The position numbers were made by a program, and so were the translations under genes. Under the pieces are notes generated by a model. It did not search any database. It saw only the letters and a program-made list of their open reading frames with translations, and was not told the DNA's origin. Source: Acidobacteriota bacterium (GTDB lineage: Bacteria; Acidobacteriota; Vicinamibacteria; Vicinamibacterales; UBA8438). Taken from it: a stretch of DNA of 64,000 nucleotides. Positions 14,575-15,686 of the stretch are shown one piece after another (within the stretch, counting starts at the first letter, position 1; every line of letters starts with the position of its first letter). The stretch spans positions 1-64,000 of the forward strand of contig VXME01000058.1 in NCBI GenBank assembly GCA_009861545.1, given 5' to 3'.

Positions 14575-14664
14575 GAAGGCCCTCACCTCAACCCCTTTCC
14601 GGCTTCATGTTCGGCGGAAGCCGTTACGCCGGAAGACCCTACGGCGGGCGCCGAGCCGAAACAA

Positions 14665-14702
14665 CTTAAGAGTTGCTGAAATCCTCTTCAGCAACTCTTA
14701 AG
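14665..14702. promoter_or_regulatory. Head-to-head response-regulator boxes in a perfect 16-bp inverted repeat
   Basis: CTTAAGAGTTGCTGAA (14665-14680) and its exact reverse complement (14687-14702) are separated by 6 bp. Each arm contains hexamers spaced 11 bp apart, CTTAAG-N5-CTGAA(A/G). This is the layout of OmpR/PhoB-family sites; the PmrA box is CTTAAG-N5-CTTAAG. It lies 91 bp upstream of the TonB-receptor start. Related boxes occur at 14850 and 17622. The transcript could also form a hairpin here. Confidence 0.6.
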
Positions 14703-14849
14703 ATGCTGTCCGGTGGTAGCGCGATTTGGCGCCGGCTTTCCAGGAACGCCATACTCTTTCACCCCGTTTCTGTCCGTCCTCCTGGTCGCCTCCGCATCGT
14801 TCACTCCGCCTATCGATACGTTGCCGCAACCGGATCGCGCGGCGTGCGC

Positions 14850-14866
14850 CTTAAGATTTCCTGAAA
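14850..14866 (+). promoter_or_regulatory. Second response-regulator-like box, CTTAAG-N5-CTGAAA
   Basis: CTTAAG at 14850-14855 and CTGAAA at 14861-14866 are 11 bp apart, like the boxes at 14665 and 17622. The site is 36 bp upstream of the -35 hexamer of the predicted small RNA, so it may control that RNA, the receptor operon or both. Confidence 0.5.
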
Positions 14867-14901
14867 AGCGAACTACCGGGAAGTAATGAACGCCCCGGGT
14901 C

Positions 14902-14930
14902 TTGACCTGGGTCGCACTCGGAGCCATAAT
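14902..14930 (+). promoter_or_regulatory. Promoter of a predicted small RNA
   Basis: TTGACC (14902-14907), a 17-bp spacer and CATAAT (14925-14930) form a strong sigma70-like promoter. The nearest downstream signal is a terminator at 15024-15070, with no open reading frame of note between them. Confidence 0.7.
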
Positions 14931-14936
14931 GCCGGC

Positions 14937-15070
14937 GTCTCCCCGAGAAATCGGGCTTGTAAGGCTGCCATCGGAGGTAGCAGTCCCCGGTTGGTGATGA
15001 CAAGCTGACGGGGGACACACAACGGGTGGCTCTGCGACGCTTTGGGGGCGCAGAGCCACCTTCTTTTTTT
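14937..15070 (+). ncRNA. Predicted structured small RNA, family unknown
   Basis: An approximately 134-nt transcript is bounded by a good promoter and an intrinsic terminator. By eye it folds into a long bulged hairpin. 14937-14945 (GTCTCCCCG) pairs with 15009-15016 (CGGGGGAC) with one bulged U. GCTTGT (14955-14960) pairs with ACAAGC (15000-15005). An apical stem GCTGCC (14964-14969) pairs with GGTAGC (14976-14981). The terminator is separate. A closed rod with internal loops is reminiscent of 6S RNA, but I see no conserved 6S, SRP, tmRNA or riboswitch sequence, so the class is left open. Confidence 0.65.
15024..15070 (+). terminator. Intrinsic terminator of the small RNA
   Basis: GTGGCTCTGCG (15026-15036) pairs perfectly with CGCAGAGCCAC (15049-15059), extendable by two pairs at the base, and is followed by TTCTTTTTTT (15061-15070). 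The U-tract fixes the direction as plus. The 280 bp after it, up to the DUF3325 stop, shows no gene I can support. Confidence 0.9.
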
Positions 15071-15350
15071 GCTCACGCCCGGATCAGTCGCAAGACCCGC
15101 ACGCAAGGCATGCGGCCTGCGGATACACAAGCGCGCGAACGGTAACGCACGCGTCAGAGTGTCGGTTGCAAGCGCACCGCGAACTGCAACGACCGCCGTA
15201 CCTCTTTCCGACGAGGGCCGAAGACGAAGTGCCGGGTATCCGGAACTCGATACCAACCCGACCCCGATAAGCGCCTGAAAGGAACAAGCGTTCGAAACCG
15301 AACGCGGAACCGAGTCGTCGCGACTTCGAGCTTGCGAAAAACGAACCCAA

Positions 15351-15686
15351 CTATCCGAAGAATCCCACCCAGAGGCTGGCAACGGCACCGACCGCGGCGG
15401 CAACTCGGATGGGGGCAACCGCCTGCGGGGAGTAGGTGAGGAGCAACGCCGCCGCAACCGCGGTAACCGTCACCACGCCCGGGAACGCCACGGCCGCCAT
15501 CGCCGGTCCCCACGCGCGGGCCGTCGCCGCCGCACTCGCGGCCAGCAGTATCCAGCCGGCCGACCGGTCCGCTCGCCGGCGCCGGCTGCTCGGCTCGCGG
15601 CCGTACACCCGGCGGTGGTGGCGGGTCTGGCTCAGGCCCAGGGTCGCCAACCCGGCGTAGCTCAGCGCGAACGCGGCCAGCGTCAT
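15351..15686 (-). CDS. DUF3325-like small membrane protein
   Basis: 111 aa from ATG 15686, whose ATGA overlaps the PepSY stop. It has three to four hydrophobic helices (LAAFALSYAGLATLGLS, GWILLAASAAATARAWG, VVTVTAVAAALLLTY, VAAAVGAVASLWVGFF) with a basic loop HHRRVYGREPSSRRRR. This order and size match DUF3325 proteins, which follow a PepSY protein in siderophore-receptor loci. The frame is hidden inside a longer open shadow frame. Function unknown; probably part of an inner-membrane iron-handling complex. Confidence 0.8.
   Translation of the reverse strand: MTLAAFALSYAGLATLGLSQTRHHRRVYGREPSSRRRRADRSAGWILLAASAAATARAWGPAMAAVAFPGVVTVTAVAAALLLTYSPQAVAPIRVAAAVGAVASLWVGFFG

Follow-up and report, generated by a model that had tools for sequence, protein, structure and literature searches.

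A Structured RNA Family Encoded 3' of PemK/MazF-like Toxin Genes, Probably RNA Antitoxins, with a Toxin-less Copy in an Acidobacteriota Genome

The window, a 64,000-nucleotide stretch of an Acidobacteriota genome, carries a small RNA gene belonging to a family whose other members mostly lie directly behind a PemK/MazF-like toxin gene. The members share a covarying structure, a conserved promoter and terminator and a linkage to the toxin, and no conserved protein antitoxin accompanies them. We consider it probable that the family consists of RNA antitoxins and, because the same genome has a full toxin–RNA module on another contig (C154), that the window copy is a toxin-less orphan whose likeliest role, now or in the past, is to provide antitoxin in trans. 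The family is apparently widespread and uncatalogued; our literature search covered open-licence papers, so an earlier report may have been missed.

The RNA Gene in the Window

A sequence-only reading of this stretch had proposed an unannotated small RNA gene with a promoter, a fold and a terminator, and all three elements were borne out by the promoter score, the folding z-score and the terminator stem. The features of the gene are as follows.

14902–14930, + strand: sigma-70 type promoter TTGACC-N17-CATAAT (−35 at 14902–14907, 17-nt spacer, −10 at 14925–14930)
14937–15070, + strand: small RNA gene, ~133 nt, its boundaries predicted from the promoter (5') and the terminator (3')
14942–14955, + strand: hairpin P2, CCCGA[GAAA]UCGGG (fold; covariation of helix 2)
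14956–14960, + strand: CUUGU, which may form the 5' side of a pseudoknot with 15000–15004 (direct complementarity)
14964–14981, + strand: hairpin P3, GCUGCC/GGUAGC (fold; covariation of helix 3)
14983–15016, + strand: hairpin P4, 12 of 13 pairs formed, apical loop GAUGACAA at 14996–15003 (fold; covariation of helices 4–6)
15000–15004, + strand: ACAAG, which may form the 3' side of that pseudoknot, spanning P4 loop and stem (complementarity to 14956–14960)
15024–15070, + strand: Rho-independent terminator GGUGGCUCUGC/GCAGAGCCACC, then UCUUUUUUU (fold; covariation of helix 7)

The promoter has 10 of 12 matches and is the better of two sites in 14 kb (1.0 expected from shuffles). The region 14937–15069 folds at −67.1 kcal/mol (z = −5.6), which none of 200 shuffles equalled, and with the terminator left off, 14937–15020 still folds at z = −2.8. 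The terminator stem (15024–15061) has a core of 11 perfect pairs, and TCTTTTTTT comes after it. In line with the sequence-only reading, no sense ORF is apparent, and the listed frames over the RNA are antisense. The closed rod suggested by the sequence-only reading was not recovered; the fold comprises three separate hairpins and the terminator, and the closing helix, P1, was not kept, with just 61% of cells paired across relatives.

Copies in the Same Genome and Order

A DNA search of the same genome revealed a second copy on contig C154, and a search of 60 relatives located copies in three of them, the Acidobacteriota genomes G001, G019 and G013. This homology was evident at the DNA level (E from 5e-25 to 2e-5) prior to any model, and the copies have three hairpins and the terminator in common. 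A covariance model, R1, built from five of these copies matched G000:C154 (the same genome), G001:C184, G001:C166, G019:C276, G019:C440 and G013:C91 with E from 1e-12 to 1e-43; the window copy scored 130.9 bits under R1, to whose building it had itself contributed. Scanning the family and order with R1 gave no further convincing copies. Two palindrome-like matches, at G011:C23, where both strands match, and at G626:C38, were not counted.

On C154, the RNA starts straight after a 146-aa ORF with a match to PF02452 (PemK_toxin, E 2.7e-11), and this toxin ORF likewise precedes the copies on G001:C166, G019:C440 and G013:C91. The toxin is present in exactly four of the 162 genomes of the order, and convincing RNA matches are confined to the same four. 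The remaining copies (window, G001:C184 and G019:C276) have no toxin and are not syntenic, and each of the three genomes that bear such an orphan also has a complete toxin–RNA module. The toxin directly 5' of the RNA, as seen for the paralogue on C154, is absent at the window copy, and tblastn and blastn searches of 900 bp near it for a toxin ORF or a remnant of one returned nothing beyond chance.

Could the RNA instead be a 6S-like or an iron-responsive RNA, as was first proposed? Its location, with a TonB receptor on one side and two PepSY_TM proteins on the other, and the response-regulator-like box at 14850 favour such a role. The box is real, as the motif CTTAAGN5CTKAA has just four occurrences in the 6.35-Mb genome, of which three lie in the window.

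14665–14680, 14687–14702 and 14850–14865: CTTAAGN5CTGAA boxes, two of which form a perfect inverted repeat

These boxes look like sites for a regulator of TonB receptors and, because the fourth (C102:53171) lies upstream of a TonB-receptor-like ORF, the 14850 box need not belong to the RNA. Furthermore, the Rfam scan that the sequence-only reading had suggested, run on the entire window, gave no family at gathering score, and 6S RNA (RF00013) did not match even at E ≤ 10 within 14600–15400. Both are stand-alone structured RNAs, but 6S RNA is one long rod with a bubble, whereas the family has three hairpins. As to iron, the three orphans are not syntenic, iron genes sought beside the relatives' copies were absent, and the constant neighbour of the family is the PemK/MazF toxin gene. 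Against this evidence, a 6S-like or iron-responsive role is scarcely credible.

Conservation of the Structure

The structure test used an R1 alignment of 54 matches, of which five are spurious antisense rows. The results show that 91% of the cells pair and that 27 of the 30 pairs changed on both sides; both-side changes amounted to 379 cells compared with 123.2 ± 10.2 in the shuffled and at most 87 in the slid controls, a test that leans in the structure's favour because the alignment was fitted to it. P2 (helix 2) was paired in 95.8% of cells and P3 (helix 3) in 96.3%, each with both-side changes in four of five pairs, and the terminator (helix 7) in 99%, with such changes in eight of nine pairs. 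Compensatory changes in relatives, which the sequence-only reading had named as a check, thus leave the pairing intact. The apical loop of P4 is near-invariant (consensus GAUNACAAG).

In a structure-blind scan of a sequence-only MAFFT alignment, P3 and P4 column pairs were among the highest, mixed with others that arise from relatedness or misalignment. RNAalifold recovered just P3 and part of P4 from the all-member MAFFT alignment; P2 was missed because it is misaligned there.

The pseudoknot (14956–14960 with 15000–15004) is a tentative assignment in the window copy. The pairing is kept in most close relatives and covaries in L069 and L071 (GGAUU with AAUCC), is weakened in L021 and is lost in many alphaproteobacterial members. 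A family-wide pseudoknot was therefore rejected, as it suits the close relatives but not the alphaproteobacterial members.

Is the Orphan Copy Functional?

The window copy has the family's P2, P3, P4, GAUNACAAG loop and terminator and an AAGAC-like junction, which reads AAGGC here compared with AAGAC-like sequences in the family. Its P4 loop equals the family consensus, and that of the toxin-linked C154 copy deviates from it (GAUCACGAG). At the same time, no branch among the close relatives is longer than that of the window copy (0.32).

One alternative is that the family consists of RNA antitoxins but that the window copy is a decaying relic, left after toxin loss and of no present function. 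This would fit the missing toxin in cis, the lack of synteny among orphans and the long branch, which is compatible with relaxed constraint. On the other hand, the promoter, all three hairpins, the loop and the terminator of the window copy are intact, sequence changes in P3 and in the terminator leave its stems paired, and the orphans L011 and L012, in two other genomes, have all hairpins intact; the promoter of L011 is weak, and that of L012 is shared with the window copy. We regard the relic as unlikely, though a contender to be taken seriously. The intact elements and the consensus loop are compatible with a functional solitary antitoxin, and we place the chance that the window copy functions at present somewhat better than even.

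The RNA Lies 3' of the Toxin across Phyla

To survey the family independently of the RNA, 82 toxin relatives (80 genome loci and two viral-contig loci) were fetched by toxin alignment with no RNA information. The loci are mainly from Proteobacteria, with others from Nitrospirae, Chlorobi and Acidobacteria. R1 matched in sense and 3' of the toxin (E ≤ 0.01) at 47 of the 82 loci. A motif test, which asked for both motifs (junction and loop) together with eight or more P4 pairs, was positive in sense at 63 of 79 usable loci and in antisense at four, with 2.3% positive in shuffles. Taken together, the two tests place the RNA on the 3' side of the toxin at at least 67 of the 79 usable loci, and at several of the remaining loci, RNA variants are visible by eye. 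In 15 whole genomes, eight of ten R1 matches fell in the 3' flank of the toxin itself; the other two were the two weakest.

Members also occur on plasmids of Xanthomonas and Fluviibacter and in a record of Neisseria gonorrhoeae (E 6e-10), and a tailless Vibrio virus has a weak RNA match 3' of its toxin (E 0.01). On the E. coli plasmid p5217, the RNA (L125, 858–999, minus strand; E 0.002) lies on the strand opposite to that of the toxin gene and converges with it, near RNAI of the replicon, and has its own promoter-like TTGATA/TATAAT; it is therefore not just a 3' UTR.

Two of these loci showed further features. In the Neisseria gonorrhoeae chromosome record (L129, 1501–2006), neither the toxin nor the RNA is annotated in the table used. 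In tailless Vibrio viruses (Vinavirales; L134, 1501–2178), the toxin gene lies beside a LexA-like repressor gene.

A promoter is conserved at the RNA. When anchored on the RNA, a −35/−10 pair scored at least 10 in 62% of 65 loci compared with 5.6% of shuffles, a conservation that also backs the promoter call made from the window sequence. The family promoter is TTGAC-N16–19-TATAAT-like, predominantly with 17-nt spacing, and occupies the same place as the window's; at many loci, its TTGAC falls within codons for a C-terminal Leu-Thr or Leu-Asp of the toxin. The conserved pair indicates that the family RNA is very probably transcribed from its own promoter.

Might the RNA be a cis regulator, a substrate or sensor that closes the toxin mRNA and lets the toxin regulate its own message, and not an inhibitor of the protein? 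At nearly all loci, the RNA is indeed directly 3' of the toxin and in sense. However, its own promoter, its toxin-less copies (L011, L012 and the window) and its opposite orientation on p5217 all argue against a cis regulator, which we consider improbable. It could also be a base-pairing regulatory RNA whose targets are other mRNAs and whose link to the toxin gene is incidental, as might be expected of a discrete promoter–RNA–terminator unit that exists in orphan form. But the conservation is structural, with stem sequences that change freely, the most conserved unpaired stretches (AAGAC and GAUNACAAG) are short, and the RNA is tied to one toxin family across phyla, so that we hold a base-pairing regulator to be quite improbable too.

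The Toxin and Its Neighbours

Databases label the relatives of the toxin as type II toxins; it is absent from the PADLOC listing. The AlphaFold2 model of the toxin (pLDDT 89.6) had MazF chains from S. aureus (E 1.3e-6) and M. tuberculosis as its best Foldseek matches, and no ToxN chain was among the 50 matches listed. The toxin profile matches MazF sequences weakly. By its modelled fold, the toxin is predicted to be a MazF/Kid-like endoribonuclease. E24 and R29, which are invariant in the toxin family alignment, lie within the stretch aligned to MazF positions 4–55; in the MazF of E. coli, these positions are important for catalysis.

No conserved protein antitoxin was found upstream, where the ORFs 5' of the toxin form no shared family. 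The largest cluster of upstream ORFs came from eight Pseudomonas loci, which have the same neighbouring gene 126–165 nt away. Four loci (L083, L088, L110 and L104) carry, on the 5' side of the toxin, a small ORF that is HTH- or ribbon-helix-helix-like and could encode a protein antitoxin there. Separately, in L043 and L044 alone, the toxin is immediately preceded by a short zinc-ribbon/HTH ORF that looks like a truncated MqsA-type antitoxin.

A Probable RNA Antitoxin

A MazF-fold toxin that has no conserved protein partner, and a conserved, structured RNA with a promoter of its own as its sole constant neighbour, is what would be expected of an RNA antitoxin. In a complete locus, the toxin gene precedes the RNA, with the −35 of the RNA in or near the last codons of the toxin and the −10 at or just past the stop, and the RNA then folds into P2, P3 and P4, followed by the terminator. 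The separate promoter would hold the RNA in excess of the toxin mRNA. By analogy with ToxI acting on ToxN, the folded RNA, which has the conserved AAGAC junction and the GAUNACAAG loop, may bind the toxin and block its RNA-binding or active site. Inhibition through direct binding has a precedent in ToxIN-type systems (PMC5086642), and by this analogy we infer that the family RNA would neutralise the PemK/MazF toxin.

Type III systems are defined by antitoxin RNA repeats 5' of the toxin, with one promoter and a terminator in between, and their toxins have a MazF/Kid-like endoribonuclease fold (PMC5086642). The family resembles ToxIN, CptIN and TenpIN in its small structured RNA adjacent to the toxin, its Rho-independent terminator, its occurrence on chromosomes, plasmids and a virus, and its MazF/Kid-like endoribonuclease toxin, the last by predicted fold alone. 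On the other hand, the RNA lies 3' of the toxin, has a promoter of its own and forms a single three-hairpin unit of ~85 nt, whereas type III RNAs are 34–50-nt repeats 5' of the toxin, and the best fold matches of the family's toxin are MazF chains. Because gene order, single unit and separate promoter all differ, we say that the family would work like type III and not that it is a member of it. The arrangement is best read as new, a type III-like function exerted by a single unit that is 3' of the toxin and has its own promoter.

Other known systems offer partial parallels. In AbiF/RCd22, a structured RNA neutralises the toxin by direct binding, both in cis and in trans (PMC12373285). That RNA (abiF motif, RF03085) also lies beside a toxin and was found by comparative genomics, but the toxin is unrelated, and the RNA is upstream of the gene, in two motif copies. 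The name of the Rfam pemK RNA (RF02913) indicates a catalogued PemK-associated RNA; however, this is a 61-nt model, which had no match in the window or in 20 module-bearing genomes and none at E ≤ 3 in 14 module loci; it rose above its cut-off nowhere, controls included. Type II MazEF/PemIK systems share the PF02452 match and the MazF fold of the toxin, but the family's loci have no conserved adjacent gene for a protein antitoxin.

Many proteins labelled "type II PemK/MazF toxin" have no visible antitoxin, and a conserved RNA behind them would explain how the cells survive. We are evenly divided on a broader proposition, namely that a large share of the solitary Gram-negative "type II PemK/MazF family toxins" form a new, RNA-neutralised class with one three-hairpin RNA whose promoter is written into the last codons of the toxin, and that genomes like the window's keep toxin-less RNAs as stand-alone antidotes. 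RNA antitoxins would thereby gain a new gene order and fold. The orphan copy poses the question of RNA-based anti-addiction, and the E. coli plasmid p5217 offers a module that can be tested.

A different arrangement was seen behind some toxin relatives from Acidobacteriia. At L106, L113 and L120, the three-hairpin RNA is replaced by a terminator and CCCG..CGGGAAUGCG hairpins, one or two in number, and L119 has one clear copy of the hairpin. These hairpins recall the repeats of type III systems.
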